NCBI RefSeq assembly: GCF_024298965.1
Contig: NZ_CP085193.1
Coordinates: forward strand, 9,858,001 to 9,922,000
Direction: 5' to 3'
DNA: 64,000 nt
Source of the DNA: Streptomyces rapamycinicus NRRL 5491
GTDB taxonomy: Bacteria > Actinomycetota > Actinomycetes > Streptomycetales > Streptomycetaceae
Below, one piece after another: positions 11,770 to 35,344 of this stretch; within the stretch, counting starts at the first letter, position 1, and the number at the start of each line of letters is the position of its first letter. The notes under the pieces are model-generated. The model made no database searches and had not been told where the DNA came from. It worked only from the letters and a program-made list of their open reading frames with translations. The translations under genes were made by a program, and so were the position numbers.

Positions 11770-12552
11770 ATGACGATGGACGCGGAGTTCTACTCCCGGG
11801 TGGCCGAGCGGTTCGGCGGCTACTTCAGCGATGCGCGGAGCACCGACGTATTCCCCGATGGCCGCCCGGATGCCGTCTTCGATGAGCTGGTGACCGCGCT
11901 GGGCGCCCCGCAGGCCCGACTGCTGGATGTCGGCTGTGCCGACGGGCGTAGTCTGCTGCGCGTCTCTTCCGCGTACGGCGCCGCGACCGGGATGGATCTG
12001 TCGCCCTCGATGCTGGAATGCGCCGCGCGGTACCGAGCGGAGGCGGGCCTGGCGCACGTCACGTTCGAGCTGTGCGATGCCGCCCACACCGGACTACCCG
12101 ATGGGGACGTCGATGTGGTCACTTCCCGCCGCGGTCCGCTGATCGCCCAAGAGTTCAAGCGGGTGCTCCGCCCCGGCGGTGCCGTGGTGTACATGGGAAT
12201 CGGGGAGCAGGACGCGCGCGAGCTGAAAGAAACGTTCGGCCGAGGCCAGGACTTCGACAGCTGGAACGGCAGGCCATTGTCGGAGGAGATCGCTCAAGAA
12301 CTGTCCGACGCGGGCTTCGTCGTGACAAGAAACCAGGCGTTCCGGTTCGAGGAGTTCTACCACTCGCCGGGCGATCTGGACACTTTTCTGCACCAGGTGC
12401 CAATCATCGACAACTACGATTCGGCGGCGGACGAGGAGGCATTCGATCGATATGTCACCGCGGCGACCACCGATCAGGGCGTCCGGCTGAGCCGGCATTG
12501 GTTCATCGTGCAGGCGCAGAAGCCGACGGCTGTCGAGTCGTCCCACTCATAG
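11770..12552 (+). CDS. Class I SAM-dependent methyltransferase
   Basis: 260 residues. Motif I LLDVGCADG is near residue 55, followed by the acidic DLSPSM and the post-motif VLRPGGAVVYMG. The C-terminal part has no recognised substrate domain. It stands first in the run leading to queE (13 bp away) and probably methylates the deazaguanine or an amino acid of the final product, although self-resistance by RNA methylation cannot be excluded. GGGGAAGG lies 11 bp before the ATG. Confidence 0.8.
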   Translation: MTMDAEFYSRVAERFGGYFSDARSTDVFPDGRPDAVFDELVTALGAPQARLLDVGCADGRSLLRVSSAYGAATGMDLSPSMLECAARYRAEAGLAHVTFELCDAAHTGLPDGDVDVVTSRRGPLIAQEFKRVLRPGGAVVYMGIGEQDARELKETFGRGQDFDSWNGRPLSEEIAQELSDAGFVVTRNQAFRFEEFYHSPGDLDTFLHQVPIIDNYDSAADEEAFDRYVTAATTDQGVRLSRHWFIVQAQKPTAVESSHS

Positions 12553-12565
12553 GAAACGGTGCGCC

Positions 12566-13279
12566 ATGGAGCAGGATCTCGTAGTCAACGAAATCTTCGG
12601 TCCGACCGTCCAGGGCGAGGGCCGGTCCCTGGGACGCAGATGCGCGTTCCTGCGACTCGGCGGGTGCAACCTGTCGTGCTCGTGGTGCGATACGCCGTAC
12701 ACGTGGGACTGGACCGGAGCCAGTGAGAGCGGGGTCGCCCACGATCCGCGCAAGGAACTGCACCGCCGCCCGGTCGGAGATGTCCTCACGGAATTGCTCG
12801 CATTCGACACCGAGCTGATCGTGATCTCCGGCGGTGAGCCCCTGGGCCAGCAGGAGCGGCTGATTCCTCTGGTGGCGGCACTGACCGGACACGGTAAAGA
12901 GATCGAGATCGAGACCAACGGGACGCACGCCGCGCACCCCGAACTCATCGCCGCCGGCGTCAGGTTCAACGTCTCGCCGAAGCTGTCGCACTCGGGCGAC
13001 ACCCTGCAGCGCAGGATCGTCCCTGAGGCACTCACCAGCCTCTCGGCACTGCCGGGAAGCACGTTCAAGTTCGTCTGCCAGAACACCCGCGATCTCGACG
13101 AAGTGGCCCAGCTGGTCGCCACCTTCGACCTGTCCTCGGTATGGATCATGCCGATCGGGCGTACCGCCGACGATGTCACAAAACACATGAGCGAGCTGGC
13201 CGACGCCGTGGTGGAGCGCGGCTGGAACCTGACGACCAGACTTCACACCTTGTTGTGGGACGAAAAACGCGGCGTGTGA
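12566..13279 (+). CDS. queE: QueE: 7-carboxy-7-deazaguanine synthase
   Basis: A 237-residue radical SAM enzyme. The cluster motif reads CNLSCSWC (Cys34, Cys38, Cys41), and FGPTVQGEG near the N terminus is typical of QueE. It converts 6-carboxy-5,6,7,8-tetrahydropterin to 7-carboxy-7-deazaguanine (CDG), the ring-contracting step. ISGGEPL, the GGE-like SAM site, is at about residues 89-95. queD, folE and, after one intervening gene, queC follow, so GTP-to-preQ0 is complete in this operon. Confidence 0.93.
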   Translation: MEQDLVVNEIFGPTVQGEGRSLGRRCAFLRLGGCNLSCSWCDTPYTWDWTGASESGVAHDPRKELHRRPVGDVLTELLAFDTELIVISGGEPLGQQERLIPLVAALTGHGKEIEIETNGTHAAHPELIAAGVRFNVSPKLSHSGDTLQRRIVPEALTSLSALPGSTFKFVCQNTRDLDEVAQLVATFDLSSVWIMPIGRTADDVTKHMSELADAVVERGWNLTTRLHTLLWDEKRGV

Positions 13280-13316
13280 GCACCGGCACACGCAAAGGAG
13301 AAGGGAACTCGGATCG

Positions 13317-13679
13317 ATGACATTTCGAATCACGAAGAAATTTGAATTCTCGGCCAGTCATCGGCTTACCGGCCTTGCTCCTGAGCACCAGTGTGCCCGA
13401 ATGCACGGGCACAACTATGTGATCGAGTTGGAGCTCGCGGCCGATGACGCGGATCTGTTGCCCGTGGGCTTCGTTCGAGACTACGGAGACTTGTCCGCGT
13501 TCAAGGTCTGGCTGGACAACCATCTTGATCATCGGCATCTGAACGATGTGATGGACGAAAATCCGACGGCTGAGAATATGGCAGCCTGGGTCTACAAGAC
13601 ATGGTCGATGGAGTTTCCCGAGTTGACCTGCGTGCGTGTCTCGGAAACTCCCAAGACTTGGGCCGAGTACCGGCCGTGA
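13317..13679 (+). CDS. queD: QueD: 6-carboxytetrahydropterin synthase
   Basis: A 120-residue protein of the PTPS/QueD family. Zn ligands are in FSASHRL and MHGHNY, the catalytic Cys is in HQCARMHGH, and LDHRHLN and NPTAENMA are family hallmarks. It turns dihydroneopterin triphosphate into 6-carboxytetrahydropterin for QueE. AAGGAG and GAAGGGA precede the start. The first third is clearly less G+C-rich than its neighbours (runs such as AAGAAATTTGAATTC), which hints at a different origin. It is 37 bp from both queE and folE. Confidence 0.93.
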   Translation: MTFRITKKFEFSASHRLTGLAPEHQCARMHGHNYVIELELAADDADLLPVGFVRDYGDLSAFKVWLDNHLDHRHLNDVMDENPTAENMAAWVYKTWSMEFPELTCVRVSETPKTWAEYRP

Positions 13680-13716: not shown

Positions 13717-14307
13717 ATGTCGGTGACAGAATTGGACCTCGATGGTGACTCATCGGCGTCGAGGACGACCGAGGACCCTCTGGTCGGGATCGCCCGCCAA
13801 CTGCTGGAGGAGATCGGCGAGGACCCGAATCGCGACGGACTGCGCGACACGCCCGCGCGATTCGCCCGCTGGTGGCGAGAGTTCATCAACTACGACCCGG
13901 GTTCGCTGGGCACTCTCTTCGAGTCCATCGGCACGAGCCAGCTCGTAGTCGTCTCGGACATTCAGGTCTGGTCCCTGTGCGAGCACCACCTCCTGCCGTT
14001 CAACTGCTCGGTGACGATCGCGTACCGCCCGGCGGGGCAACTGCTCGGCCTGTCGAAGTTCGCCAGGGTCGCCCATCAGTACGCGCACAAGCTGCAGGTC
14101 CAGGAGCGCCTCGTGGACCAGATCGCGCTCGAGATCAGCACCCTGAGCGGCACCCCGGACGTCGCGGTCATAGCGAAGGGCGAGCACCTCTGCATGTCGA
14201 TGCGCGGCATCAAGGCCGCCGCGCAGATGACATCCACCGCGTATCGCGGGGAGTTCAGCACGGACGCCGGACTCCGGGGCGAGCTGTTCGACCTGCTCCG
14301 GGCGTGA
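13717..14307 (+). CDS. folE: GTP cyclohydrolase I (FolE)
   Basis: 196 residues. WSLCEHHLLPF and GEHLCMSMRG contribute the Zn-binding Cys, His and Cys; LLGLSKFARV and LQVQERLVDQI are conserved family blocks. It converts GTP to dihydroneopterin triphosphate, feeding QueD. I start at ATG 13717 behind CGAAAGGTGA; the frame is open upstream but would overlap queD. A pathway-dedicated copy beside queD, queE and queC indicates precursor supply for a 7-deazapurine product rather than folate. Confidence 0.93.
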   Translation: MSVTELDLDGDSSASRTTEDPLVGIARQLLEEIGEDPNRDGLRDTPARFARWWREFINYDPGSLGTLFESIGTSQLVVVSDIQVWSLCEHHLLPFNCSVTIAYRPAGQLLGLSKFARVAHQYAHKLQVQERLVDQIALEISTLSGTPDVAVIAKGEHLCMSMRGIKAAAQMTSTAYRGEFSTDAGLRGELFDLLRA

Positions 14308-14392: not shown

Positions 14393-15373
14393 ATGAACGA
14401 CAATGACTCTTTGACGCCCGCGGAAGCGGTTCGCCTGCTCCCCGCGCTGGACGCCGACCGGCTGGTGGCCGACCTGATGACGGCGCGCGACCACCTGTGG
14501 GACCAACAGCGCGTGTACCGAGACGGGGCTGTGGTCAGGCAGGCCGAGGAGGACTGGCGCTGCCTCGCGGTGCGCAGCCCCGGTGGTGACAAGACACGTA
14601 CCGACCCGGGCGGCCCCGGTGGTGCGGAGTTCGCCGACACCGAGTGGCTGGCCCATATGCCGTACGTCCGGGAGATCCTGCGTTCGATCCCCGGACCCCT
14701 CTTCGCGGCCCGGTTCATGGATCTCGGCCCCGACACCGTCGGCTACCGCCATTGCGACTTCAAGTTCGCCCCGGACTGGGGAATGGCCCGGCTGCACATC
14801 CCGGTCATGACCCACGAGAAGGCCACGCTGGAGCTTGACGGGGTGACCTATCGCTGGCAGCCCGGCGAGTTCTGGTTCGGTGACTTCAGCCGCATGCACC
14901 AGATCGAGAACCTCGGTCCCGAGCATCGGGTGCACCTGGTCGTGGACGTACTTGTCACACCGGAGCTCGCGCAGCTGTTCCCGGCTGACTGGGCCGACTA
15001 CTTCAACGGCCCGGACGTGCTCTACAACCGGCCGGCGGTGGCCTTGACCGACGGCGAGCGGGAAGCGGCCCCGTGTTCGTTCGACGCGCCGGAGCACCTG
15101 CTGGAGGTGGAGGAGTTCGGGTCGCTCACCTGCCCGCAACCGCAGGCCACCTTCCACGTCGTCGACACCGGCACGGAGCTCGCCATCCGATCCCCCCGGG
15201 ACCACCTGTTCCCGCTGGTTGCCCTCGGCGGAGACGAGTACCGCCTGGTCGGGTGGAGCGAGGAGCGAACCGTGACCATGCGGCTGGACGCTCCGCGGCC
15301 CGAGGTCGAGCTGACCTACCGCAGGGGCCGGCGGGCGACCCGGCTGGTCGTCCCGGCCACGCCGGCGGCATGA
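14393..15373 (+). CDS. Aspartyl/asparaginyl beta-hydroxylase-like Fe(II)/2OG oxygenase
   Basis: 326 residues. The N-terminal half matches the Asp/Asn beta-hydroxylase cupin: YRHCDFKFAP, RLHIPVMTHEKATLEL, PGEFWFGDFSRMHQIENLG and HRVHLVVD supply the metal-binding His and 2OG-binding Arg. The C-terminal 120 residues have no recognised domain and may be an extra beta domain. AAAGGACAACG directly precedes the ATG. Within a 7-deazaguanine and peptide pathway it probably hydroxylates an amino acid or a carrier-bound residue; the substrate is not readable. A 29-codon ORF overlaps its stop by ATGA. Confidence 0.82.
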   Translation: MNDNDSLTPAEAVRLLPALDADRLVADLMTARDHLWDQQRVYRDGAVVRQAEEDWRCLAVRSPGGDKTRTDPGGPGGAEFADTEWLAHMPYVREILRSIPGPLFAARFMDLGPDTVGYRHCDFKFAPDWGMARLHIPVMTHEKATLELDGVTYRWQPGEFWFGDFSRMHQIENLGPEHRVHLVVDVLVTPELAQLFPADWADYFNGPDVLYNRPAVALTDGEREAAPCSFDAPEHLLEVEEFGSLTCPQPQATFHVVDTGTELAIRSPRDHLFPLVALGGDEYRLVGWSEERTVTMRLDAPRPEVELTYRRGRRATRLVVPATPAA

Positions 15374-15507: not shown

Positions 15508-16197
15508 ATGCCCAAAACTGTCGCAATCGTGTCCGGCGGCCTGGACTCGGTCACCATGGCCTATCACCTCCAGGCACAAGGACACACGCTCCGACTGCTG
15601 TCCGTGAACTACGGGCAGCGCCACCTCATCGAGCACGAGTTCGCCGCGAAGGCGGCTCGAACCCTCGGGGTGCCGCACGACGTCGTCGACCTCAGCCCGG
15701 TCGGCAAGCTCATGCACGGCTCCTCGCTCACCGACCCGGACGTCGACGTGCCGGATCAGAAGAGGGACTCGCCCGGCGAGAGCCCGAACGTCGTGCCCAA
15801 CCGCAACGCCCTGCTGCTGTCCGTCGCCTTCGCGGTCGCCGTCGCCGAGAAGGCGGAAGCGGTGGCCATCGGGGTGATCGACGACCCACAGGCCGCGCCC
15901 GACGCCAATAGCGCGTTTCTCGACTCCTTCCTCGCCATGGAGAAGATCGCGACCCACGGATACGCGCACCCCGAGCTGACCTTGACGGCGCCGCTGGCCG
16001 AACTGCGCAAGAGCGGCGTGGTGTCGCTCGGCGAGGAGCTCGGCGTCCCCTGGACCGATACCTGGACCTGCATGCGTAGCGGCCCGCTGCACTGCGGACG
16101 GTGCGCTTCCTGCTGGGACCGCCAGGAAGCGTTCCAAGACGCCGGCGTGACCGACCCGACGACCTACCAGACCAGCAATGCGAAGGTGCTGCCATGA
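15508..16197 (+). CDS. queC: QueC: 7-cyano-7-deazaguanine (preQ0) synthase
   Basis: A 229-residue PP-loop ATP pyrophosphatase. SGGLDSVTM at residues 9-17 is the ATP site, and VVPNRNALLLS is the conserved middle motif. Four cysteines near the C terminus (in TWTCM, HCGRC and ASC) form the Zn site. It uses ATP and ammonia to convert CDG to preQ0. queF, tgt and queA are absent from the window, so preQ0 or CDG is likely drawn into a secondary metabolite. It overlaps the next gene by ATGA. Confidence 0.93.
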   Translation: MPKTVAIVSGGLDSVTMAYHLQAQGHTLRLLSVNYGQRHLIEHEFAAKAARTLGVPHDVVDLSPVGKLMHGSSLTDPDVDVPDQKRDSPGESPNVVPNRNALLLSVAFAVAVAEKAEAVAIGVIDDPQAAPDANSAFLDSFLAMEKIATHGYAHPELTLTAPLAELRKSGVVSLGEELGVPWTDTWTCMRSGPLHCGRCASCWDRQEAFQDAGVTDPTTYQTSNAKVLP

Positions 16198-17219
16198 CCG
16201 ACCCCTTTCCGGTGCTCGACCTCCGTGACGCCGCCGGTTCGGAAGAAACCCGGGCAGAGTTCCTGAACCGGTTGCGCAAGGCCATCCACGAGGTCGGCTT
16301 CTTCCAGCTCGTCGGTCACGGTGTCGAGGACTCCGACGACATGCTCGAGCTGGCCCGCCAGTTCTTCGCCCTGCCCGAGGCCGATCGGCTCGCGCTGAAC
16401 ATCCTCGACTCGCCGCTGTTCCGCGGCTACTCCGAACTCGGCCGCGAACACACCAAGGGAATCCCCGACCAGCGCCAGCAGCTGGACATCGGGCCGGAGC
16501 AGCCCACGAGGACGTCCGCGCCCGGCGATCCCGCCTACCGGTGCCTGATCGGCCCGAACGAGTGGCCCAAGGCGATGCCCGAGCTGCGCCCGGCCATCGA
16601 GTCTTGGATCACCCGGCTGACCGATCTGTCACATCGACTGCTACGGCTGATGCTCGAGTCGCTCGACGCCCCCGCCGGGTTCCTGGACGACGTGGTCGAT
16701 CCGGATCCGCAGATCCACCTGAAGCTTCTGCACTATCCCGGTCCCACGCGGACGAGCGAGGACGACGGCTCCGGCCAGGGGACCGGCATCCACAACGACC
16801 TCGGGCTGCTCACCCTGCTCGTCCAGGACGACAACGGTGGCCTCCAGGTCGCGGTCGAGGAAGACCAGTTCATCGATGTGCCGGTGATCCCGGGGGCGTT
16901 CGTGGTCAACCTGGGGGAGCTGCTGGAGGTGGCGACGAGGGGCTATGTGCGTGCCACCCTGCACCGGGTGGTCCGGCCCGCCCCGGGCGTCAACCGCTAC
17001 TCCATTCCCTTCTTCTACAACCCTCGGCTGGACGCCACGATGCAGCCGCTGCCCAGCCCATATGTCGAGGGCGCCGGCGGAGTCATCGACGTCGCCGACA
17101 ACCCGCTGTTCGCGCTGTACGGCGACAACGTCATGAAGGGGCTGGTCCGCTCCTTCCCCGACATCGTGGCCCGGCACCACCCGAACCTGGCCGCGGCGGC
17201 CAAGTCCACGAGTGCCTGA
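16194..17219 (+). CDS. IPNS-like Fe(II)/2OG-dependent oxygenase
   Basis: 341 residues, isopenicillin N synthase/2OG family. FPVLDLR and GFFQLVGHGV mark the N-terminal DIOX domain. GIHNDLGLLTLL gives the HxD pair, ATLHRVV the distal His and NRYSIPFF the RxS 2OG motif. I start at 16194, overlapping the queC stop, because the longer open frame is queC out of phase. Coupling to queC suggests it acts on preQ0, CDG or a product derived from them; oxidation, desaturation and ring closure are all possible for this family. Confidence 0.88.
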   Translation: MTDPFPVLDLRDAAGSEETRAEFLNRLRKAIHEVGFFQLVGHGVEDSDDMLELARQFFALPEADRLALNILDSPLFRGYSELGREHTKGIPDQRQQLDIGPEQPTRTSAPGDPAYRCLIGPNEWPKAMPELRPAIESWITRLTDLSHRLLRLMLESLDAPAGFLDDVVDPDPQIHLKLLHYPGPTRTSEDDGSGQGTGIHNDLGLLTLLVQDDNGGLQVAVEEDQFIDVPVIPGAFVVNLGELLEVATRGYVRATLHRVVRPAPGVNRYSIPFFYNPRLDATMQPLPSPYVEGAGGVIDVADNPLFALYGDNVMKGLVRSFPDIVARHHPNLAAAAKSTSA

Positions 17220-17691: not shown

Positions 17692-19524
17692 ATGAGAATC
17701 AACCTTCTCGGGCCGCTCCAGGCCTACGGGGACGATCACCGCGTCGACCTGGCGCCGGCCGCCCAGAAAGTACGTCAGACACTGGCACTGCTCGTGCTGA
17801 ACGCGGGCCGGGTGGTGCGCTTCGAGCAACTCATGGACGAACTGTGGGACGACGACCCACCGGCCAGCGCGCACACCGCCCTGCAGACGTATGTGTACCA
17901 GCTCAGGAAGCGGTTCTCCCTCGGCAACCCGAGGAGCGGCGGCGCGGTACGGGCGGCCGGCCCGCTGCTGGGCACGGTCGACGGCGGCTACCAGCTTTCG
18001 CTGCCCGCCGACCACGTGGATGTCTTCCGCTGCGAGCCGCTGCTCGCCCGCGCCCGTGCGGAGTTCCGTGACGAGGACTTCGCCCGGGCCCGTGACACGG
18101 CCGCCGCGGCGCTGCAGCTGTGGCGGGACGATGCCCTGGTGGACGTACGCAAGGGGCCCGCGCTGCAGGCCGAGGCGGTCCGCCTGAAGGAGCTGCGTAC
18201 CAGCGCACACCACCTGCGGATCGAAGCCGACCTGCACCTCGGCCGGCACCACGAGGTGCTCGGCGAACTCAGCTCGATGGCCGGGCGGGAACCCACGAAC
18301 GAGTGGGCCCAGCGCAATCTGATGACGGCTCTCTACCGCATGGACCGGCGGGTGGAGGCGCTCCAGGTCTACCAGCGGGCACGCGAGCGGATCGCCACCG
18401 AGCTGGGCCTCGACCCTTCCCCCGAACTCCAGGCCCTGCACACGGCCGTGCTCACGTCGGACGAGGAGCTGCTGCGTCCCGCCGGGCGGCTGACGGCCGT
18501 GACCGCCGCCACCCGGGCGCCCTGCCATCTGCCCGCCCCGCGCGAACGCCTGACCGGACGCGCCGGCCAACTGGCGCGCATCACCGCGGCGCTGGCGGGC
18601 CGGGCGCGGGAGGACCGGCCGCTCGTGATCGTGGGGGGCGCTCCCGGCACGGGGAAGAGCGAGCTGTGCCTGCACGCCGCGCATCAGGTGAGCGGCCACT
18701 ACCCGGACGGACGGCTCTACGCACGTCTCCGTGACGGCGCCGGGCGGCGGGTGCGGCCCGCCGAGATCCTCCGCTCGTTCCTGCGTGGACTCGGCGCGAC
18801 GGAGGAGCAGTTGCGGCTGGGCACCACCGACCTGAGCCTGCTGTTCCGCAGCTGGACCGCCGACCTGCGCGTCCTGGTGGTGCTCGACGACGTGTGCGAC
18901 GTACGGGACCTGACGCCGCTGCTGCCGTCCGGCGGTGGCTGCGGCGTGGTGATCGGCAGCCGGCGGCGGCTGTTCGTGTCCTCGTCGGCGGTCCACGTCG
19001 AACTGGCCGGACTGTCCTTCGACGACTGTCTGCACCTGCTGGCATCCTCCGTGCCGAACCACCGGACCACCATGGACCCGGAGGGGCTGCGGCGGCTGGC
19101 CGGGCTGTGCCGGGGGCTGCCGGGCGCGCTCTTCGCGGTGGCTTCGCAGCTGCGCCGCCGCCCGCACTGGACGGCCCGGCAGGCCACTGCCTGGGTCCTC
19201 GCGTCCGGGGGCGGCGACAGCGATCCGCTGGGCGTGCGGGCCGGATTCGACCGGACGCTCGCGACGCTGCCCGCCGAGTCGCGGTCCCTGGCGTACGCGC
19301 TGTTGTCCCCCGGCGTCCCCGACCGGCTCACGCCGGCGCTTGCCGCCGTGGCCCTGGGGATCAGCGACCAGCGGGCCGAGGATCTGCTGGAGGAACTGTC
19401 GGAGAGCTACCTGCTGCGCGCGCGGCACCTGTGCGTGAACGGCCGGTTCTCCTACGAGTGGGAGCCTGGGGTACGCCCGTTCGCGGCGCGGCGGAGCAAC
19501 GCGCCGGTCATGTGCTCGGCCTGA
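17692..19524 (+). CDS. SARP transcriptional activator with NB-ARC domain
   Basis: 610 residues. The winged helix begins at MRINLLGPLQAY (QTYVYQLRKRF) and the activation domain extends to about residue 260 (ELGLDPSPELQAL). An NTPase domain follows with P-loop GGAPGTGKSELCL near residue 320 and VLVVLDDVCD as Walker B. It has no TPR region, so it is shorter than the SARP at 8479. It sits between the 7-deazaguanine operon and the first ATP-grasp gene, so it is the best placed regulator of the middle pathway. No TTA codon was noticed. Confidence 0.87.
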   Translation: MRINLLGPLQAYGDDHRVDLAPAAQKVRQTLALLVLNAGRVVRFEQLMDELWDDDPPASAHTALQTYVYQLRKRFSLGNPRSGGAVRAAGPLLGTVDGGYQLSLPADHVDVFRCEPLLARARAEFRDEDFARARDTAAAALQLWRDDALVDVRKGPALQAEAVRLKELRTSAHHLRIEADLHLGRHHEVLGELSSMAGREPTNEWAQRNLMTALYRMDRRVEALQVYQRARERIATELGLDPSPELQALHTAVLTSDEELLRPAGRLTAVTAATRAPCHLPAPRERLTGRAGQLARITAALAGRAREDRPLVIVGGAPGTGKSELCLHAAHQVSGHYPDGRLYARLRDGAGRRVRPAEILRSFLRGLGATEEQLRLGTTDLSLLFRSWTADLRVLVVLDDVCDVRDLTPLLPSGGGCGVVIGSRRRLFVSSSAVHVELAGLSFDDCLHLLASSVPNHRTTMDPEGLRRLAGLCRGLPGALFAVASQLRRRPHWTARQATAWVLASGGGDSDPLGVRAGFDRTLATLPAESRSLAYALLSPGVPDRLTPALAAVALGISDQRAEDLLEELSESYLLRARHLCVNGRFSYEWEPGVRPFAARRSNAPVMCSA

Positions 19525-19677: not shown

Positions 19678-20949
19678 ATGCCACAGCGCCCGAAACTCGT
19701 CCTCGTCGGCCAGTTGTCCGTGTATCCCTGGGTGTTCGAAGCAGCCGAGCGTGCCGGTATCGACCTGATCCTCATCCCCAGGGGGGACGACTCGGCGGAG
19801 TCCGCCGGGCGGGCCAAGGCGGTGGTCGAAGTGCTGCCACTGGACATCGAGGAAAACCCGGAAGGTGCGCTGATCGCGCTCGCCGAGCGCTACCGGCGGG
19901 AGCCCTTCGGCGGAATCATGGCGGGCAACGAGAGGGTCGTGCCGTTCGTGGCGCGCGCCGCCCGAGAGCTGGGCCTCACCGGCCTGACCGAGGAGGCGGC
20001 GGCCGTGGTGCGCGACAAGCGCAGCATGCGCCAGCACCTGCGGGAGGCGGGTCTGGGCGCGCCCGGCTTCGTGGCCGTCGAGGATCCGGACGGCTGGACC
20101 GAGGCGCTGACCTTGCGGTTCCCCGTCGTGGTCAAGCCGGCGAACGGCCACTCCAGCCTCGGTGTGATCCGTGTGGATGACAAGGACAGCCTTGAGCAGG
20201 CCGTGGCCCGCACCTGGAAGCTCATCGAAACCCACCACCTGGGGGCCGCCGACGGATCGGCCCCGGAATCCGGTGTGCTGGTCGAGGAGTACCTGGATGG
20301 GCCGGAGGTCTCCGCCGAATCCCTCGTGCGCGACGGGCGGGTACGGGTCTGTGGCATCAGCTGGAAGGGGGAACTGGCGGGTCCCTACTTCGAGGAGACC
20401 ACGCTGCGGGCCCCCGCCCAGCTGCCCGCCGAGATACTCGCCGCGATCGAGGCGGAGGTGATCGGTGCCCACCACGCCTTCGGCGTCACGGAGGGCACCA
20501 CGCACACCGAAGTGCGGCTGGTCGGCGGGGTGCGGCCGGTGCTGCTGGAGATGGGCGCGCGGATCGGCGGCGGCGGCTTCATGCACCACCTCGTCCACCT
20601 CAGCAGCGGGATCGACCTGGCCGCCGAGGCGATGCGCATCCACCTCGGCCAGGAACCGCTCTGCTGGAGTGAGGAGCCGGAACCGGTCGGCCACGTGGCG
20701 GCCTACCAGGTGGCGGTCGGCAGCGGTGGACGGATGAAGCGGATACGCGGCTTGGACGCGGTGCGCGACGACCCGCGGGTGGACTACGTGGTGGAGGCCG
20801 TGAGCCCCGGCACACTGCTGGCCCCCTACCCGGACCACTCCGGATACCCGGTCATGGTGATCTCCCGTCATGAGTCGGATGCCGAGGCCGAGGAGTACCG
20901 CGCCCACCTCGAGCGGACGCTGCACGTCGAGTACGAAGAGCAGGGTTGA
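19678..20949 (+). CDS. ATP-grasp amide ligase
   Basis: A 423-residue ATP-grasp enzyme of the amino acid ligase type. FPVVVKPANGHSSLGV holds the ATP-binding Lys, VLVEEYLDGPEVS contacts the adenine, and LLEMGARIGGGG is the metal-binding loop. Start is MPQRPKL behind TTGGAG; upstream frame is the 3' end and spacer of the SARP gene. Family members join two amino or carboxylic acids through an acyl phosphate, for example dapdiamide-type Dap ligation. Directly upstream of the diaminopropionate genes, it may couple Dap or its NRPS product. A terminator follows. Confidence 0.85.
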   Translation: MPQRPKLVLVGQLSVYPWVFEAAERAGIDLILIPRGDDSAESAGRAKAVVEVLPLDIEENPEGALIALAERYRREPFGGIMAGNERVVPFVARAARELGLTGLTEEAAAVVRDKRSMRQHLREAGLGAPGFVAVEDPDGWTEALTLRFPVVVKPANGHSSLGVIRVDDKDSLEQAVARTWKLIETHHLGAADGSAPESGVLVEEYLDGPEVSAESLVRDGRVRVCGISWKGELAGPYFEETTLRAPAQLPAEILAAIEAEVIGAHHAFGVTEGTTHTEVRLVGGVRPVLLEMGARIGGGGFMHHLVHLSSGIDLAAEAMRIHLGQEPLCWSEEPEPVGHVAAYQVAVGSGGRMKRIRGLDAVRDDPRVDYVVEAVSPGTLLAPYPDHSGYPVMVISRHESDAEAEEYRAHLERTLHVEYEEQG

Positions 20950-21016: not shown

Positions 21017-21048
21017 TCCCTTTTCTGTCTTCGGGTGTTTGTCGTAGT

Positions 21049-21081: not shown

Positions 21082-21101
21082 TTCCGTGCCAGACTCGGCC
21101 C

Positions 21102-22118: not shown

Positions 22119-22132
22119 AGGAGAACCACCCC

Positions 22133-24134: not shown

Positions 24135-29077
<4,943 letters not shown>

Positions 29078-29081
<4 letters not shown>

Positions 29082-29158: not shown

Positions 29159-29995
29159 TCAGGTCCAGCTCACGACCGTTCGGGGATCGGTGAACCCCAT
29201 GATGAAGGACACCGTCGTGCGGTTGCCGGTGTTGGCGTCCACCGCGTGCACGAACGCACCGTTGAAGGCGTAGACGTCGCCCTCCCGGATGTCCAGGCGC
29301 AGTTCCTCGAAGTCCGCCAGGGCCTCGGCCTGGTAGGGCAGCCCCGTCAGCTCGATGTCGAGCGAGCGCCGGGTCGCGTCGTCGGGGCGGATGTTCCAGA
29401 TCACCAGCCGCCCTCCGGCGCTGTGTTCGGTGCACATGTTCACCGCGCAGATCTGGTGGTCCAGGACCCGCTGGATCTCGAAACCGGCCTGTCGCGGGTC
29501 CTTGCACTGCGCCTCGTCCTCGTGCGGGTCGAGGGAGAAGTCACCCTCCTTGTCCCACGCGCGGATCAGCGCGGCGCACGCCGAGCGGCCGTTCATCCGC
29601 GCCACCCGCAGGGACGCGCCCTCCTGCCGCAGGGCCTCGTCCACGCCCTGGCGGAACTCGTGCCAGGGCGAGTTCGGGGCGTCGATGACCTGCTGGACGT
29701 GCTCGGCGACCTCGGCGGACTCGTCGAGATAGGTGTCGGCGTCCTTGTTCCAGTGGTAGGCGCCGACGTAGTGCGAGGGCTCGCCCTCCCGATGCTGCCG
29801 GGCGGGGCTGGCCCAGAATCGTTCGGTCAGTTCCTTGCGCGCCGCCGTCGGTATGACATCCCGGAAGATCACGCCCAGCCTGCGGCCGTGCAGGACGTCC
29901 AGAACGAGCTCGTAGTCCAGTTCGCCGCGCTCCTCGAAGCGGAAGAACTCCGGATCGGCCTGCTGTCCGCTCAGCCGTATCTTGCTCTGCTGCAT
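29159..29995 (-). CDS. Fe(II)/2OG-dependent oxygenase
   Basis: 278 residues. DPHEDEAQ supplies His-x-Asp, AFVHAVD the distal His and NRTTVSF the Arg that would bind 2-oxoglutarate. The Asp is intact, so a hydroxylase is more likely than a halogenase. I start at MQQSKIRL, behind a GAGAGAG stretch; the long upstream frame is the antisense of sbnA. It is preceded 66 bp upstream by sbnA copy 2 on the same strand, so it is expressed from the duplicated cassette. The substrate is probably an amino acid such as Dap or a carrier-bound residue. Confidence 0.8.
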   Translation of the reverse strand: MQQSKIRLSGQQADPEFFRFEERGELDYELVLDVLHGRRLGVIFRDVIPTAARKELTERFWASPARQHREGEPSHYVGAYHWNKDADTYLDESAEVAEHVQQVIDAPNSPWHEFRQGVDEALRQEGASLRVARMNGRSACAALIRAWDKEGDFSLDPHEDEAQCKDPRQAGFEIQRVLDHQICAVNMCTEHSAGGRLVIWNIRPDDATRRSLDIELTGLPYQAEALADFEELRLDIREGDVYAFNGAFVHAVDANTGNRTTVSFIMGFTDPRTVVSWT

Positions 29996-30060
29996 CTGTT
30001 CTCTCTCTTTCACGCGTACACCACTGCCGTAGCCGCGCGGCGGACGGCGGTGGTTCTCCT

Positions 30061-31077
30061 TCAGTTGACGGCCAGGGTTTCGACGCCGGGGGTTTGTGCC
30101 GTTTCCGCGTGCAGTTGCTGGACCCATAGGGGGTCGTAGACGGTCTGGGCGTAGGCGTGGCCGCGGTCGGCGGCGATGAAGGCGACCCGGGGACGGTGGG
30201 TGCCGGGGCGGTGCCGGGCGAAGTAGTCCTGGACGGCGGCGTAGGTGCTGCCGGTCGAGCCGCCCGCGTACAGGCCGTACTCGGCGGCCAGGGCGGAGCA
30301 GGCCTCGACGGCTCGTGCCTCGGAGACGATCTCGACGTGGTCGATCAGCGCCTGGCCGCACAGCGGTGGCACGATGCTGGAGCCGATGCCGGGGATCCGC
30401 CGCTTCTTCGGCGGGCCGCCGAAGATCACCGAGCCTTCGGCGTCGACGGCGACGACGACGCAGTCGGGGTAGGTTTCCTTGATCCGGCGGGAGAGCCCGG
30501 CGATCGTGCCGCCGGTGCCCACGCCGACGAAGAGATAATCCAGCGGGCCGGCCTGTGCGATCAGCTCGCCCGCGGTGAAGTGGTAATGCGCGTCGCGGGC
30601 ATCGGGATTGGCGTACTGGTTGGGCCAATAGGCCGAGTCGAGTTCGACCAGCAGTTCCCGGACCCGGGACAGCCGGTTCTTCAGGTAGCTGCCCGACCCG
30701 TCACGGATGGCGACTTTCTCCACCCGCTCGCACAGCAGCCGGAGCTGGGCCTCGGTGGCCTCGTTGCAGTTCGGATCGATGACCGGGACGAACGAGATGC
30801 CGAGCATCCGGCAGTAGAAGGCCAGGGCCAGCGCGAAATTGCCGGACGAGGACTCGACCACCGTCGTGCCCCGCGCTATCTCCCCGCGGCCGATCGCCTG
30901 TTCCAGAATCCACAGCGCCGAACGGTCTTTGCTGCTTCCCGTGGGATTGCAGAATTCCAGCTTCGCGACGATGTCACACTGCTCGTCCGCCAGAGGAATC
31001 AGCGGGGTTCCCATAAGGCCCCTGCGAATTTGCCTTGCCCGTTCGATCAGAGATTGATCCGCACGCCCGTGGAGCAT
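30061..31077 (-). CDS. sbnA: SbnA-like PLP enzyme for 2,3-diaminopropionate (copy 2)
   Basis: 338 residues, identical to the copy at 21102 except Val for Ile in the segment AQTVYDPLW near the C terminus. All PLP motifs (SSKDRS, SSSGNF, GTGGT) are intact, so it should be active. It leads the minus-strand oxygenase operon and directly follows the GNAT-like gene. There is no second sbnB, so extra dosage alone gives no Dap. The cassette may have been kept for its SARP-controlled promoter. Confidence 0.92.
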   Translation of the reverse strand: MLHGRADQSLIERARQIRRGLMGTPLIPLADEQCDIVAKLEFCNPTGSSKDRSALWILEQAIGRGEIARGTTVVESSSGNFALALAFYCRMLGISFVPVIDPNCNEATEAQLRLLCERVEKVAIRDGSGSYLKNRLSRVRELLVELDSAYWPNQYANPDARDAHYHFTAGELIAQAGPLDYLFVGVGTGGTIAGLSRRIKETYPDCVVVAVDAEGSVIFGGPPKKRRIPGIGSSIVPPLCGQALIDHVEIVSEARAVEACSALAAEYGLYAGGSTGSTYAAVQDYFARHRPGTHRPRVAFIAADRGHAYAQTVYDPLWVQQLHAETAQTPGVETLAVN

Positions 31078-31097
31078 GGGCCGAGTCTGGCACGGAA

Positions 31098-31130
31098 CCG
31101 GTCGAAGCGGCTCAACCGCGACTCAAGCGC
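31098..31130 (-). promoter_or_regulatory. SARP-type direct repeats before sbnA copy 2
   Basis: Same three 11-mers as at 21049-21081, on the opposite strand (TTGAG at 11-bp spacing). They place sbnA copy 2 and the oxygenase under the same predicted control as the NRPS operon. Confidence 0.65.
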
Positions 31131-31163
31131 ACTACGACAAACACCCGAAGACAGAAAAAGGAG

Positions 31164-32315
31164 TCAGCAGTACGGCTTCCAGAGCTCGTACTCCAGGGCG
31201 TCGGAAATCGCGGGCGAGGAGTCGCGCAGGCGGTCGAGCATGGCGCGATTGTGCTCGCGGATCTCCTCGTCGTACCCGGCCAGCGGGCTGTCCTCGGACA
31301 GGTCCAGCAGCCACAGCGGCCGGAGCGTCGCGCCGCGCAGTGCCTTTCCTTCCGCGGTCTCGGTGCCCGCGTGCAGCCAGCGCACTCCCGGGAGCCGTAC
31401 CTGCGTGTAATAGGTGAGGTTGAAGTACTCGGCGGCCGAGACGAGTTGGTCGTGGTCGAAGCCGAGCGCCCGCAGGTACACGGTGTCGCCACATCGGTAG
31501 TACAGGCAGAAGCCGACGGGCGGTTCGCCGGCGCGCGAGCACAGCACCACCTCGGCGCGCGAACCGGCGAGTTCACCCTGCTCGCGGAAGGACTCGGCGA
31601 TCGGGGCCACGTCGACAGTCCTGCCGTAGCGCAGTAGCGAACGGGCCAGCAGCCGGGCGACGTCCTGCCAGCAGTCGGCGAGCGTCCGGTGCTCCACCTC
31701 GTATCCGGCCCTCTCGAACTTCCGTACCTCGCTGCGGATACGGCGGGCCCGGTGCGCCGACAGCGATTCCAGCCAGGCGTGGTAGCCGCCGGGCGGGATC
31801 CCGATCCAGGCGTCGGTACTCAGCGCGACCGGGGCGGTCCGCACCCCCGCCGCCCGCAGCGCCCGCACATCCTCGGTGGTCAGGTACATCGCCACGCGGG
31901 CGATCTTCGAGTCCTCGTGCAGGGGGGAGCGCAGCGCGCGGACCGCGTCGAGCACCGCGGCGGCGGCCTCGGTCCGATCGGTTCCCTCGCCGGTGAGCAG
32001 ATGCGCCAGGTAGCCGCGGCGCTGGCCGATGAGCAGGCCGCCCGGCTCGGGCGCCGGCAGGCCGCGCGCGGTCAGCAGGTCGTGCCACCGCAGCTGCGGG
32101 TTGGCTTCGTCGGTCACCGCCGCCACGGGGATCGCGGCCCTGCCGCCGCCCGGGGTCTCCACGTGCAGTCCGCCGGAGACCGACCCGGGCTCGAGGAAGG
32201 CGCACTGCCGCAGCCACAGCGCCGACGAGTAGAACCTGCCGTCGGCGAGCCGGTCCCACTCGGTGTCCCCGAGCCCGCCGATGGCGTCGGCGAAAGTGTC
32301 CGTCGTGGCGGTCAT
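31164..32315 (-). CDS. FemX/GNAT-like acyltransferase
   Basis: 383 residues. The second half resembles the BioF2/FemABX-like acetyltransferase fold: HRARRIRSEVRKFERAGYEVE, then CLYYRCGDTVYLRALGFDHD and a LTYYTQVRLPGVRWLHAGTE-type segment. Start is MTATTD, behind GGGAGG; the longer open frame has no ribosome binding site. Family members transfer acetyl or aminoacyl groups, the latter from aminoacyl-tRNA. Between the Dap genes and an ATP-grasp ligase it may add an acyl or amino acid unit. It is divergent from the ATP-grasp gene across four SARP-type repeats. Confidence 0.7.
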   Translation of the reverse strand: MTATTDTFADAIGGLGDTEWDRLADGRFYSSALWLRQCAFLEPGSVSGGLHVETPGGGRAAIPVAAVTDEANPQLRWHDLLTARGLPAPEPGGLLIGQRRGYLAHLLTGEGTDRTEAAAAVLDAVRALRSPLHEDSKIARVAMYLTTEDVRALRAAGVRTAPVALSTDAWIGIPPGGYHAWLESLSAHRARRIRSEVRKFERAGYEVEHRTLADCWQDVARLLARSLLRYGRTVDVAPIAESFREQGELAGSRAEVVLCSRAGEPPVGFCLYYRCGDTVYLRALGFDHDQLVSAAEYFNLTYYTQVRLPGVRWLHAGTETAEGKALRGATLRPLWLLDLSEDSPLAGYDEEIREHNRAMLDRLRDSSPAISDALEYELWKPYC

Positions 32316-32462
32316 GGCGCCTCCCATAGTCTCTGCCTGACCGTGCCCGCGAGCTCGCTGCGCGATCGGACGCCGAGTAACGTTCCCCCATTGCCGCACA
32401 GCCATTTCTTTCGGCTGTTCAAGTATCTAGTGTTAACACAGATGCTCCACGTCCACATGGGG

Positions 32463-32506
32463 CCATTGAGCGGCAGTTGAGTCGCAGTTGAGTCGCGCAT
32501 GAGATC
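32463..32506 (+). promoter_or_regulatory. Four SARP-type 11-bp direct repeats in a divergent promoter
   Basis: CCATTGAGCGG, CAGTTGAGTCG, CAGTTGAGTCG and CGCATGAGATC are four consecutive 11-mers with TTGAG/ATGAG in register. The pattern is typical of SARP operators, and the core TTGAGTCGC is shared with the sbnA promoters. They end 66 bp before the ATP-grasp ATG at 32573, with a possible -10 near CGTTGATT. The GNAT-like gene diverges on the other side. Confidence 0.75.
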
Positions 32507-32572: not shown

Positions 32573-33970
32573 ATGTCGGCGGACCGGGTAGCAGCCCAGT
32601 ACAACGAGGAGTTCCGCATACCGGGCAGTGACTTGCCCACGGTCGCCCAGCACGTCAAGGACTTCCCGACGCTCGCCCCCTGGCATGGCGAGTATTTGGC
32701 CAGGCCCCTCTTCGTCGCCGAGCGTGAGATGCGCGAGTTCGCCGATGACCTGCAGCATCTCATCGACACGGTTTTTTCCTTGCCGGACCGGATGTTCGGC
32801 GGCGATCTGGACGCATTCCGGTCGGTGCTCGGCATCAGCGACGGCCGCTGGGAAGCGATACGGCGGTTCGGTGACGTACCGCCACCCCAGTTCGGCCGGG
32901 CCGACATGTACCACGACGGCACCTCGTTCAAACTCCTCGAGTTCAATCTGGGGAGCGAGGCCGGCGGCTGGGGCCTCGCGAGTGAAATCTCCAGGGCGAC
33001 GATGGAGATTGACGCCTTCGCCGACTTCGCGCGCCGGAATCGGCTTGGTTACGTGCATCCCATTCGCGCCGTGGTGGAGGCGCTGCGCCACTTCGCCGCC
33101 CGGGTGGCACCCGGGCGCGAACCGGTGGTGGCCCTGCTTGAATGGCGTGGGGGTCTGAAGGACTACGGCGAACTCTGGCTCAACTTCCAGTCCGCACTGC
33201 GCTCGGCGGGCCTGGACATCCTGGTGGCCGAGGTCTCCGACGTGCACGAACGCGGCGGGGCGCTCTACCTCGGGGACACGAAGATCGACGTGGTCTACCG
33301 CTCCTTCGTCCCGGACCAGATCGCCGAGGAGCCCGACGGCTGGGACCTGGTCGCGCCCCTGCTGCGTGCGCACCGGGCGGGCGAGACGCTGACATGGACC
33401 CCGCTTTCCAGCAACATGTTCGCCAACAAGGCCTGTATGGCGCTGCTTTCGGATCCGGCGTGGCGGCGCGACCTCGGCGAGGACGAGTGCCGGCTCATCG
33501 ACCGGGTGCTGCCCTGGACCCGGCTGATCAACACGGACGCGCTCAAGACCGACCTCGTCGACGAATGCGTGGCGCGGCGCGAGCAGTTGATCCTGAAGGT
33601 CAACGGGCGCGGCGGGGGAGTGGGCGCCGTGGTGGGCTGGGAAACGGACGACGCCACTTGGCGGCGGGCTCTGGAGGACTCCGCCGCCGAAGGATGTGTC
33701 GTACAACAGCGGGTGATCCCCCGGCCCGAGCTCGTGGTGGACCCGGTATCCGGGGAAACCGAGGAATGGCATGCGGCCTATGGCATGTTCTACACCCCGC
33801 ACGGCTGTGCCGGAGCGTTCGCCAAGGTGGTGCCGACCGGTTCGGGCGGCATCATTTCCATCGCGGCGCACGCCAAGGCGCGCAGCGCGGCCGTCTTCCA
33901 TCAGAGCCAGCTGCCCGTCTGGGGCGAAGTGCCTGCCGTGGGCGAATTGCCCGCCGATGCGCCGAAGTAA
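32573..33970 (+). CDS. ATP-grasp-type ligase (second)
   Basis: 465 residues. FKLLEFNLGSEAGG matches the metal- and nucleotide-binding region of ATP-grasp proteins, and EQLILKVNGRGGGVGAVVG looks like the ATP-binding Lys and Gly-rich loop. Motif order suggests a circularly permuted ATP-grasp, as in glutathionylspermidine synthase-like enzymes. These form amide bonds between a carboxylate and an amine. With the ligase at 19678, the NRPS and the GNAT-like protein, the pathway has several independent amide-forming steps. The exporter gene follows after 9 bp, so the pair is one operon from the four-repeat promoter. Confidence 0.75.
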   Translation: MSADRVAAQYNEEFRIPGSDLPTVAQHVKDFPTLAPWHGEYLARPLFVAEREMREFADDLQHLIDTVFSLPDRMFGGDLDAFRSVLGISDGRWEAIRRFGDVPPPQFGRADMYHDGTSFKLLEFNLGSEAGGWGLASEISRATMEIDAFADFARRNRLGYVHPIRAVVEALRHFAARVAPGREPVVALLEWRGGLKDYGELWLNFQSALRSAGLDILVAEVSDVHERGGALYLGDTKIDVVYRSFVPDQIAEEPDGWDLVAPLLRAHRAGETLTWTPLSSNMFANKACMALLSDPAWRRDLGEDECRLIDRVLPWTRLINTDALKTDLVDECVARREQLILKVNGRGGGVGAVVGWETDDATWRRALEDSAAEGCVVQQRVIPRPELVVDPVSGETEEWHAAYGMFYTPHGCAGAFAKVVPTGSGGIISIAAHAKARSAAVFHQSQLPVWGEVPAVGELPADAPK

Positions 33971-33979
33971 AGAGAAGTC

Positions 33980-35344
33980 ATGATGTCGCGGCATTCCCCC
34001 GCGCCTTCGGCGTGGCGGCGGATTCAGACGGCCTGGGGTCTGCCGGACCTCGCGGGAAAGGGCCGCTTCGTCACGGCCAATCTGATCGACAGCCTGGGCA
34101 ACGGGTTGGTGATGGCGTTCACCGTCGTCTTCTTCGTGAAGACGACGTCGCTGTCACTGGTCGCCGTCGGCGCCGCGCTGACCGCCGGACAGCTGCTCGC
34201 CCTGCCCGTTCCGCCCTTTATCGGGTCCCTGTTGGACAAATACGGTCCGCGTATCGTGGTCGCTGCGGGCAACTGGATTTCGGTGGCCGGATTCATCGGT
34301 TTCCTGTTCTCGCACGCGGCCTGGCAGATCGTGCTGTGGCAGTTCGTGGTGCAACTGGGTTCCACCGCCTTCTGGATGGGCAACAGTCCGCTCATCGTGC
34401 TGGTCGCCCGGGGCGTCGAGCGGGCCCGCTGGTTCGGCTTCGTGCGTGCCCTCCGCAATGTCGGCGTCGGTTTCGGCGGCGCCGCGTCCGCGGTGGCCCT
34501 GAGCATCGGAACCGTCACCTGGCTGCGGGCGGTGATGGTGATCAACGTGGTCACCTTCGCCGTCGCGGGCTGGCTCGTGATCACCTTCCGGGGCGCGGAC
34601 GGGAGCGGGGCGGCCGATGCCGGCCCCGCGGAGGCGAAGCCCGCCGAGCCGGAGCGGGCGGCGGGCGAAGCCACCGGACAACCCTCGGGCGGCTTTCGCA
34701 CCGTACTGAAGGACACCCGGTATCTGCGGCTGGTCGCGACGAACATCGCCTTCGCCTTCGCCTCCACGGTGGTCGCGGTGCTGCTCGCCGTCTACGTGGC
34801 GGACAACCTCGCTGTCGGCTCCTGGATCGTCGGCGTGCTCGTCGTGCTGAACACGGTCATGGTCGCGCTGCTCCAGACGCTCGCCAGCCGGTGGATCGAG
34901 GCCCGCAGACCGGCGGCGGTGCTGGTGCTGGCCCTGCTGTTCAACGCGGCGGCGTTCGCCGTCTTCGGCACGCTGCTCGTGCTGCCCGGCTGGGCGGTGA
35001 TCGCCGGGCTGCTGATCGCGATGGTGCTCTACACCGTGGGCGAGATCCTCGGCTCGCCGCCGACCAGCGAACTGAGCGTGGTGATGGCGCCCGAGCATCT
35101 GCGGGGCCGCTATCTGGGCGTCTACCAGCTGTCCTGGTCGGTCGGCGGTGCCGTCGCCCCGGCGCTGCTCACAGCGCTGCTGGAGGGCGGTGCGGCGCTG
35201 CCCTGGGTGTTCCTCACCGCGATCAGCGTGCTGGCCGTACCGCTCGTGCTCGGGCTCGACCGGCGGCCCGCGGCCACGAGCGAGGCCGCACCGGCCGGGG
35301 ACGCCGCCTCCGTGGAGCAACTCGACGGCGGCCCCGTCGGCTGA
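33980..35344 (+). CDS. MFS efflux transporter
   Basis: 454 residues with about 12 hydrophobic segments and a charged, Ala/Glu-rich central loop (near residues 210-235) splitting them six and six. ALPVPPFIGSLLDKYGPR fits the family's conserved loop between helices 2 and 3. It is likely a proton-driven exporter in the cytoplasmic membrane. It is co-transcribed with the second ATP-grasp ligase, so it probably exports the middle pathway's product, although rapG begins just beyond. ATG at 33980 or 33983 could be used. Confidence 0.87.
   Translation: MMSRHSPAPSAWRRIQTAWGLPDLAGKGRFVTANLIDSLGNGLVMAFTVVFFVKTTSLSLVAVGAALTAGQLLALPVPPFIGSLLDKYGPRIVVAAGNWISVAGFIGFLFSHAAWQIVLWQFVVQLGSTAFWMGNSPLIVLVARGVERARWFGFVRALRNVGVGFGGAASAVALSIGTVTWLRAVMVINVVTFAVAGWLVITFRGADGSGAADAGPAEAKPAEPERAAGEATGQPSGGFRTVLKDTRYLRLVATNIAFAFASTVVAVLLAVYVADNLAVGSWIVGVLVVLNTVMVALLQTLASRWIEARRPAAVLVLALLFNAAAFAVFGTLLVLPGWAVIAGLLIAMVLYTVGEILGSPPTSELSVVMAPEHLRGRYLGVYQLSWSVGGAVAPALLTALLEGGAALPWVFLTAISVLAVPLVLGLDRRPAATSEAAPAGDAASVEQLDGGPVG

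Follow-up and report, generated by a model that had tools for sequence, protein, structure and literature searches.

The window analysed here comprises 64,000 nucleotides (positions 9,858,001-9,922,000) of the single-contig, 12,466,108-base genome of Streptomyces rapamycinicus NRRL 5491. Within it, genes for 7-deazaguanine synthesis, L-diaminopropionate (L-Dap) synthesis and nonribosomal peptide assembly form a set of about 24 kb (window positions 11770-35344), flanked on the right by rapamycin-type genes and on the left by polyketide synthase (PKS) and nonribosomal peptide synthetase (NRPS) genes, as judged by Pfam and NCBIfam. We propose that this set is one composite cluster that probably makes a 7-deazaguanine-peptide conjugate. 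Its genes were called by Pfam and NCBIfam, and orfD and orfE additionally by structure prediction and Foldseek (Table 1). All genes named in an initial annotation of this DNA were found, including the methyltransferase, the exporter, three Fe/2OG (iron/2-oxoglutarate) oxygenases, two ATP-grasp ligases, a FemX-like protein and the SARP regulators, each backed by Pfam, homologues or structure; the MbtH gene, the type II thioesterase and the second sbnA had been left out, and the NRPS starts at 24135.

Table 1. Features of the gene set and its borders, in window coordinates.
Feature	Position	Strand	Evidence
SARP1, large SARP-type regulator (BTAD, NB-ARC, TPR)	8323..11394	+	domain scan
11-bp-spaced repeat CTATCAC-N4-CTATCCC in the que-operon leader, candidate SARP site	11585..11602	+	comparison of rows
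S-adenosylmethionine (SAM) methyltransferase (Methyltransf_25)	11770..12552	+	Pfam
QueE, 7-carboxy-7-deazaguanine (CDG) synthase (radical SAM)	12566..13279	+	Pfam/NCBIfam
QueD, 6-carboxytetrahydropterin synthase	13317..13679	+	Pfam/NCBIfam
FolE, GTP cyclohydrolase I	13717..14307	+	Pfam/NCBIfam
hyd1, Asp/Arg-hydroxylase-type Fe/2OG oxygenase	14393..15373	+	Pfam
Divergent QueC (YPDC to APDA; zinc-loop CY to CM)	15508..16197	+	Pfam/NCBIfam, alignment
ox2, DIOX_N / EFE/IPNS-family Fe/2OG oxygenase	16194..17219	+	Pfam
SARP2 regulator	17692..19524	+	Pfam
LAL, L-amino-acid-ligase-type ATP-grasp	~19678..20949	+	Pfam
Inverted-repeat arm 1, with SARP box and sbnA (21102-22118)	21016..22130	+	self-comparison
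SARP box before sbnA	21053		motif scan
SbnA, copy 1	21102-22118	+	TIGR03945, 367.5 bits vs cut-off 350
SbnB, L-Dap biosynthesis	~22139..23152	+	TIGR03944, 405 bits vs cut-off 327
MbtH-like protein	23156..23365	+	Pfam
Type II thioesterase; true start probably later than ORF start	23299..24099	+	Pfam
NRPS, A(Gly)-T-C-A(probably Dap)-T	24135..29081	+	domain scan, homologue comparison
ox3, WelO5-family Fe/2OG oxygenase	29159..29995	-	homologues
Inverted-repeat arm 2, with second sbnA (30061-31077) and SARP box; by gene order the published orfDD	30049..31163	-	self-comparison
SARP box before second sbnA	31109		motif scan
orfD (published name by gene order), aminoacyl-tRNA-dependent transferase fold (FemX/MprF/Sbb17)	31164..32405	-	structure prediction, Foldseek
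SARP boxes, divergent orfD/orfE promoter	32466..32494	+	motif scan
orfE (published name by gene order), glutathione-synthetase-like ATP-grasp ligase	32573..33970	+	structure prediction, Foldseek
MFS exporter, by gene order the published rapF (predicted export)	33980..35344	+	Pfam
rapG (AraC), start of the rapamycin-type cluster	35357-36538	-	

The que operon holds the folE, queD and queE gene families of the route to CDG, with the corresponding predicted activities. QueE, QueD and QueC score under the curated NCBIfam equivalog cut-offs, so that their names rest on family membership. With QueE as query no second match appeared in the genome, and QueC is its sole PF06508 match at E 1e-30. Across the whole 12.47-Mb genome tgt (PF01702), queF and queA gave 0 matches at E 0.001; as positive controls the same three were detected in 14, 8 and 9 of 14 genomes, respectively. 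The absence of these genes, from which it had been concluded that the deazaguanine does not serve tRNA queuosine, thus holds genome-wide. The nearest solved relative of hyd1, located within this operon, is a cis-4-proline hydroxylase, a weak match.

SbnA and SbnB both exceed their NCBIfam cut-offs, which places them at equivalog level for the L-Dap module, in line with the role assigned to them before. The NRPS consists of adenylation (A), thiolation (T) and condensation (C) domains in the order A-T-C-A-T, as initially described, and a Pfam scan found no release domain. Its start lies near 24135. In the longer open reading frame (ORF), the initial ~236 residues come from reading the type II thioesterase gene out of frame, and a long N-terminal domain was rejected for this reason. 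Read by motif against the GrsA numbering, the codes are DILQLGLVW (A1) and DNWNFGEVT (A2), both identical in 15/15 NRPSs, down to 70% identity. We take the A1 code to specify glycine, in agreement with the glycine-like first code of the initial annotation. The A2 code does not by itself resolve the substrate; because sbnA-sbnB precede the NRPS in each locus and a Glu stands directly before the YGPTE motif, Dap is the most likely one.

When aligned with the solved QueC 2pg3, the QueC of the window has APDA in place of YPDC and CM in place of the zinc-loop CY, and keeps the canonical SGGLDS, YGQRHLIE and VPNRN (patterns SGGxDS, YxQxHxxE and VPxRN). Its orthologues carry APDA or APDS, plus CM or CF. 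The divergent clade retains the aspartate of the YPDC motif and has lost the tyrosine and the cysteine; equivalents of E. coli Y131 and Y189 are missing from the window protein and from every aligned orthologue. According to passages of PMC13329287, the E. coli QueC variants Y131A and Y189A are inactive and Y131F is partly active. In both Cap9 and B. subtilis QueC, the base is stacked upon by the tyrosine, while its Watson-Crick edge is recognised by the aspartate; Cap9 joins CDG to an N-terminal glycine (passages of PMC13279940).

A PF06508 survey of 199 Streptomyces genomes gave 28 QueC matches in 25 of them, 21 with both YPDC and CY and seven with neither; G005, G036 and G048 encode one canonical and one divergent QueC each. 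Within the fetched stretches (13-20 kb for the 21), an LAL-type gene lies near QueC in 7/7 divergent and 0/21 canonical loci (Fisher p 8e-7, the seven divergent loci amounting to no more than three independent types of cluster). Of the five ligase queries, three came from divergent-QueC loci; the two from outside them still match 7/7 divergent loci, with G194 represented by L006 of the same assembly, and 0/21 canonical ones. In addition, the que clusters of G305, G005 and G080 combine the divergent QueC type with a diaminobutyrate transaminase. Taken together, there is good evidence from these alignments and neighbourhoods for a functional split within the QueC family, and they are suggestive only of CDG-amine ligation by the divergent branch. 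Since the window QueC is of the divergent type, CDG, and not preQ0, is the probable base intermediate; the earlier claim that preQ0 is made from GTP is borne out for the folE, queD, queE and queC families and less so for the end product. We infer that CDG, not preQ0, would be joined to the Gly/Dap peptide.

The two halves of the set are inherited together. One scan of a species-genome collection with hyd1 gave 16 loci (L002-L017), of which eight (L002-L009) carry the que core at 78-99% identity; all eight genomes hold sbnB at 91-95%. As a second sample, 392 Streptomyces genomes were scanned for orfE, SbnB and QueE. The two samples yield 11 distinct close genomes, the window included, with G380, G194 and G273 coinciding with three of the eight genomes of the hyd1 scan. 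Each of the 11 genomes with a close que core also has the methyltransferase orthologue, sbnB, mbtH, the type II thioesterase, the NRPS and sbnA, the last cut by contig ends in two. Both halves lie on one contig in 9/11, the contigs of G199 (S. iranensis) and G206 ending inside sbnA. orfD, orfE and the MFS gene were seen in 10/11; the fetched stretches of G206 did not show them. This union persists despite a reshuffled order: the NRPS block directly follows the MFS gene in seven genomes (among them six of the eight from the hyd1 scan), follows MFS-rapG in S. iranensis, whose hyd1 is 97% identical to that of the window, and lies between LAL and orfD both in the window and in G334, an arrangement also suggested for G206 by its contigs. 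In S. olivochromogenes it occupies a small contig ending in sbnA on both sides. An insertion of the NRPS block specific to the window was considered and rejected, given sbnB at 91-95% in all eight genomes and the block beyond the MFS gene in most, where 10-kb flanks were too short to reach it.

Among the 392 Streptomyces genomes, QueE at >=91%, SbnB at >=91% and orfE at >=85% occur in exactly the same six (G000, G380, G334, G194, G137 and G273). The divergence matrices of the que and Dap/NRPS parts correlate with Mantel r 0.84 (p 0.0002; other five pairs r 0.52-0.85). A Kutzneria locus encodes the proteins at 75-91% identity to the window, and as Kutzneria is another genus, which we take to belong to a different family, this points to transfer as a unit. 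The question of one cluster versus two is therefore largely answered: the opposite of que genes and NRPS block always being separate, the pattern named beforehand as refuting, is seen in 11/11 genomes. The earlier idea of one joint pathway gains the co-inheritance of its halves, and a single product is what we infer from it.

Distant relatives hold the modules apart. G164, G340, G197 and G188 (loci L089-L095) carry SARP2, sbnA, sbnB, mbtH, the type II thioesterase and the NRPS at 59-86% identity, and an AurF-like N-oxygenase is found in 4/4 (81-100% identical to that of G197). Their SARP2 homologue (59-72%, one partial at a contig end) lies near sbnA-NRPS, and the fetched stretches contain no que genes; G164 has a canonical QueC elsewhere in its genome. 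The G197 locus shows two ATP-grasps among the scanned genes. In G080 and G305 a methyltransferase-EctB-oxygenase-QueC-QueE-QueD-FolE arrangement is accompanied by L-amino-acid-ligase-type genes and a methylaspartate mutase, the methyltransferase homologues of such EctB-type que clusters being 50-60% identical to ours. The loci concerned (L098, L102 and L099 of G305 and G080) also encode hydroxy-oxovalerate-aldolase-like and arylformamidase-like enzymes and represent a second type of deazaguanine-diamino-acid cluster. G305 further holds orfD-orfE-MFS at 74-81% on a separate contig, without a close SbnB. No que match was obtained in the eight distant hyd1 loci (L010-L017); four have sbnA-sbnB with an LAL-type gene, the hyd1 relative lying within 10 kb of sbnA-sbnB, three have LAL with an ox2-like gene and an MFS gene, and one has neither. 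hyd1 thus sits in the que operon here, as a member of a family otherwise often found with Dap or ligase genes. In the four hyd1-sbnA-sbnB-LAL loci (L010, L011, L013 and L014, one from Rhodococcus) some ORFs resemble asparagine synthetase and an acyl-activating enzyme by eye. With the modules apart in these relatives, the cluster is a fused composite.

The repeat TTGAGYC-N4-TTGAGYC occurs with 0 mismatches before sbnA, its copy and orfE in the window, where a scan for it gives four sites at <=2 mismatches vs 0-2 in each of ten mononucleotide shuffles. Mismatch-free boxes precede sbnA and orfE in G200, G201, G202, G203, G204, G205, G334 and G137; in S. iranensis they stand before orfE, before the sbnA following LAL, and beside orfD. 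The four SARP2-NRPS loci lacking que genes have the box ahead of sbnA, G197 and G188 with a single mismatch. G080, G305, L009 and the short contig of G206, on which the sbnA starts are missing, yielded no TTGAGYC box, and lone one-mismatch boxes occur elsewhere in G334, G340 and G188. Before the que operon lies another repeat (CTATCAC-N4-CTATCCC), its first unit identical in eight Streptomyces rows, its second variable, and the whole absent from the Kutzneria row. SARP1 is 84-93% identical and upstream of the methyltransferase in 7/8 close loci, the Kutzneria locus being the one without it. SARP2 sits here between ox2 and LAL, and its relatives accompany sbnA-NRPS without que genes. The initial observation that SARP-type repeats link only the Dap/NRPS half thus stands: the boxes of the window precede both sbnA copies and occupy the orfD/orfE promoter, and the que operon has none in front of it.

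The two sbnA copies form inverted arms of 1115 bp with three mismatches. In G334 an inverted sbnA pair on a single contig shows 0/1014 differences, and the window and G334 differ from each other at 94/~1014 positions; an assembly collapse behind the near-identical copies is disfavoured by the 3/1115 differences in the window and by the G334 pair lying on one contig. Between the partial copies of G206, one base difference and one gap were counted across 258 columns. Two sbnA fragments of S. iranensis differ at 5/141 sites, and orf1 and orfDD share 92.12% protein identity according to passages of PMC12298158, so that a general homogenisation of the copies is not borne out. The same passages describe orf1 and orfDD as alike, orf1 also as like SbnA, and report an inverted order of orfDD, orf1, orfD, orfE, rapF and rapG in S. 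iranensis. G202 keeps a 58-residue sbnA remnant with a box in front of ox3. We propose that rearrangements of the S. iranensis type are explained by recombination between sbnA copies; the segment between the arms is possibly invertible. The slot between LAL and orfD is variable, with ox3 in the window, G200, G202 and partly G206, and ox4 (PF10014) in G201, G203, G204, G205, G206, G334 and G137; a PhyH gene lies between orfD and orfE in G201, G203 and G137, and the fetched S. iranensis stretches gave no match to ox3 or ox4. G334 also has a large ORF between NRPS and second sbnA (L087:8292-20140), PKS-NRPS-like by its sequence start and NRPS similarity, and a large PKS-NRPS-like ORF lies beyond sbnA in Kutzneria (L044/L045).

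LAL is closest to the BL00235 L-amino-acid ligase (3vot, 233 bits). The orfE model (pLDDT 89.4) folds like eukaryotic-type glutathione synthetase and glutathionylspermidine synthetase (best E 1.9e-18, TM ~0.6), and its Foldseek matches also include the ligase Cp1B, YgiC and YjfC. The orfD model (pLDDT 92.7) has a tandem GNAT fold and matches Sbb17/Sba18, MprF and FemX, which predicts tRNA use; Sbb17 ranks first and Sba18 third, at E 4.5e-10 and 9.0e-10 with TM 0.5-0.65. ox3 has no significant Pfam match of its own; most of its homologues match PF22814 and some are named WelO5. In WelO5 halogenases Gly or Ala replaces the Asp ligand. In ox3 H158-x-D160, H250 and R259 are invariant in 20/20 aligned proteins; with HxD intact, a halogenase was rejected and hydroxylase-type chemistry is expected.

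Four genes of the set (rapF, orfE, orfD and orfDD, names assigned by gene order from passages of PMC12298158) have been drawn as the rapamycin flank. They belong to the deazaguanine-Dap cluster. Orthologues of rapF (79-90% in nine other genomes), orfE and orfD occur in eight genomes in which the fetched loci matched neither chorismatase nor lysine cyclodeaminase at E 1e-20; the rapamycin boundary should therefore stop at rapG, a close copy of which stands beside orfE/orfD/rapF only in S. iranensis among the ten relatives. Beyond rapG the rapamycin-type cluster continues with a LuxR-type regulator, an FkbM-type methyltransferase, P450s, a chorismatase, a lysine-cyclodeaminase-like gene and a ferredoxin, and a long minus-strand ORF from 47089 on is presumably a PKS. 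On the other side, left of SARP1, KS-AT, A-PCP, condensation, SDR and hydrolase genes (61-7906) are perhaps the edge of the actinoplanic acid cluster, which adjoins rapamycin in S. rapamycinicus (passages of PMC12298158).

Several observations weigh against a single pathway with a CDG-ligating QueC. Each module has a free-standing distant relative and can therefore work alone, and no TTGAG box precedes the que operon in the window. The 392-genome identity thresholds were set after the gaps had been seen, and the sets differ below them: just underneath lie orfE at 76% (G305), SbnB at 79-86% (G164, G340, G197 and G188) and QueE at 75-77% (G080 and G305). The Mantel test covers 10-11 genomes with the species tree uncontrolled, and shared descent alone would produce a correlation. 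At least 41 orfE homologues at >=72% are listed, including some from Actinoplanes and Amycolatopsis, and few of their neighbourhoods were compared. With three independent types, the 7-versus-21 contrast carries a smaller true weight than its Fisher p, and two of the seven divergent loci (G048 and G036) have no sbnA, sbnB or EctB match. Loss of preQ0 formation is predicted from E. coli mutants, of which Y131F is partly active, and the effect of M or F at the zinc loop is likewise deduced.

The free-standing modules, together with the different SARP-type repeats before the que operon and the Dap units, would also suit a co-regulated supercluster of two or three pathways, whose CDG metabolite and Dap/Gly peptide are inherited together and act in concert, much as the title of Mrak 2018, cited in PMC9206652, speaks of a conserved synergism between rapamycin and actinoplanic acid in S. 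rapamycinicus. We consider this rather unlikely, as hyd1, whose family is elsewhere often found with sbnAB, lies inside the que operon, and as the exact union recurs in 11/11 genomes despite the reshuffled order. A preQ0 nucleoside cluster of the toyocamycin/huimycin type beside an unrelated NRPS cluster would share the folE/queD/queE/queC set and fit a toyocamycin-like antiSMASH call (30%) in the relative OE57 (passages of PMC12298158), presumably for the same locus; no phosphoribosyl- or glycosyltransferase matched in Pfam among the scanned genes of 11770-35344, QueC lacks the preQ0-forming tyrosines and the NRPS block is present in 11/11, which makes such a cluster very improbable. That rapF, orfE, orfD and orfDD take part in rapamycin biosynthesis, as their published names imply, is more doubtful still: they adjoin rapG/rapH, and PMC12298158, in the passages concerned, cites Molnar 1996 for rapG-rapF-orfE-orfD inside and orfDD outside the cluster, but the orthologues occur with que/Dap genes in the eight genomes lacking rapamycin markers in their fetched loci. 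A role of the que genes in tRNA queuosine or DNA modification has next to no likelihood; folE, queD and queE are known pathway families, and TGT, QueF and QueA have 0 matches in the genome, no search having been made for DNA-modification genes as such.

According to the single-pathway model that we favour, FolE, QueD and QueE would convert GTP to CDG, SbnA and SbnB would supply L-Dap, and the two-module NRPS, together with MbtH and the type II thioesterase, would assemble a Gly-X dipeptide, X most likely being Dap. The altered QueC may activate the CDG carboxylate and give it to an amine of the peptide or diamino acid, instead of to ammonia on the way to preQ0. LAL, the orfE product as a glutathione-synthetase-like ligase and the orfD product as a tRNA-dependent transferase could attach further residues; the molecule would be tailored by the methyltransferase and three Fe/2OG oxygenases and exported by the MFS protein (rapF). 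SARP2 would control the Dap/NRPS and orfD/orfE units through the TTGAGYC boxes, and SARP1 probably the que operon. More tentatively, and with somewhat less than even confidence, we suggest by analogy that the divergent QueC clade of Streptomyces acts as a deazaguanylase on small molecules, placing CDG at the N-terminus of a glycine-led or diamino-acid peptide in the way that Cap9 does at the N-terminal glycine of a protein. This would define a family of deazaguanyl-peptides, of the Dap type here and of the diaminobutyrate (Dab) type in the EctB clusters, and the inverted sbnA copies with their SARP promoters would let some clusters flip and swap tailoring cassettes.

A conserved pathway thus lies beside the rapamycin-type cluster, with four of its genes previously drawn as the rapamycin flank, and the open-licence literature searched describes no product of it. 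The inversion and the additional sbnA-like gene close to the rapamycin cluster, both left open in the passages of PMC12298158, gain an explanation from the sbnA repeats that can be tested. Should the altered QueC prove to be a ligase, deazaguanylation of the QueC type would also make small molecules and not only act on anti-phage proteins; chemists would gain a new amide-forming enzyme, and a lost YPDC with an amino-acid ligase nearby would serve as a mining signature. Echiguanines, produced by Streptomyces, are 7-deazaguanine derivatives of the free-base kind. Passages of PMC6112128 mention echiguanine A as one of the deazapurine products, and no echiguanine gene cluster was found in the same open-licence literature; with no structure confirmed, naming the product after this lead was dropped.

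Similar to the clusters for toyocamycin/sangivamycin, tubercidin and huimycin, the set uses folE, queD and queE to provide CDG within a natural-product cluster, and the huimycin cluster likewise has a methyltransferase (passages of PMC7439116 and PMC6112128). Unlike the toyocamycin type, no sugar-attaching enzyme was found in it and its QueC is divergent; it further contains Dap genes, an NRPS, three Fe/2OG oxygenases, two ATP-grasp ligases and a protein with a tRNA-dependent transferase fold. The modules of G164, G340, G197 and G188 share the SARP2-sbnA-sbnB-mbtH-thioesterase-NRPS order and the A-domain codes, and differ by AurF and the lack of a que gene. The orfD fold recalls Sbb17/Sba18 of streptothricin-type antibiotics, but at ~15% identity. 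A parallel to the proposed ligation comes from the anti-phage systems Cap9/QatC, in which a QueC-family enzyme puts CDG on an amine; the acceptor of Cap9 is an N-terminal glycine (passages of PMC13279940), and the NRPS of the window starts with glycine. The reaction of QatC itself was not reconstituted. Cap9 keeps YxDC (passages of PMC13329287), of which the window QueC clade keeps only the aspartate. In contrast to Cap9, the setting here is a natural-product cluster, and the proposed acceptor would be a small molecule.

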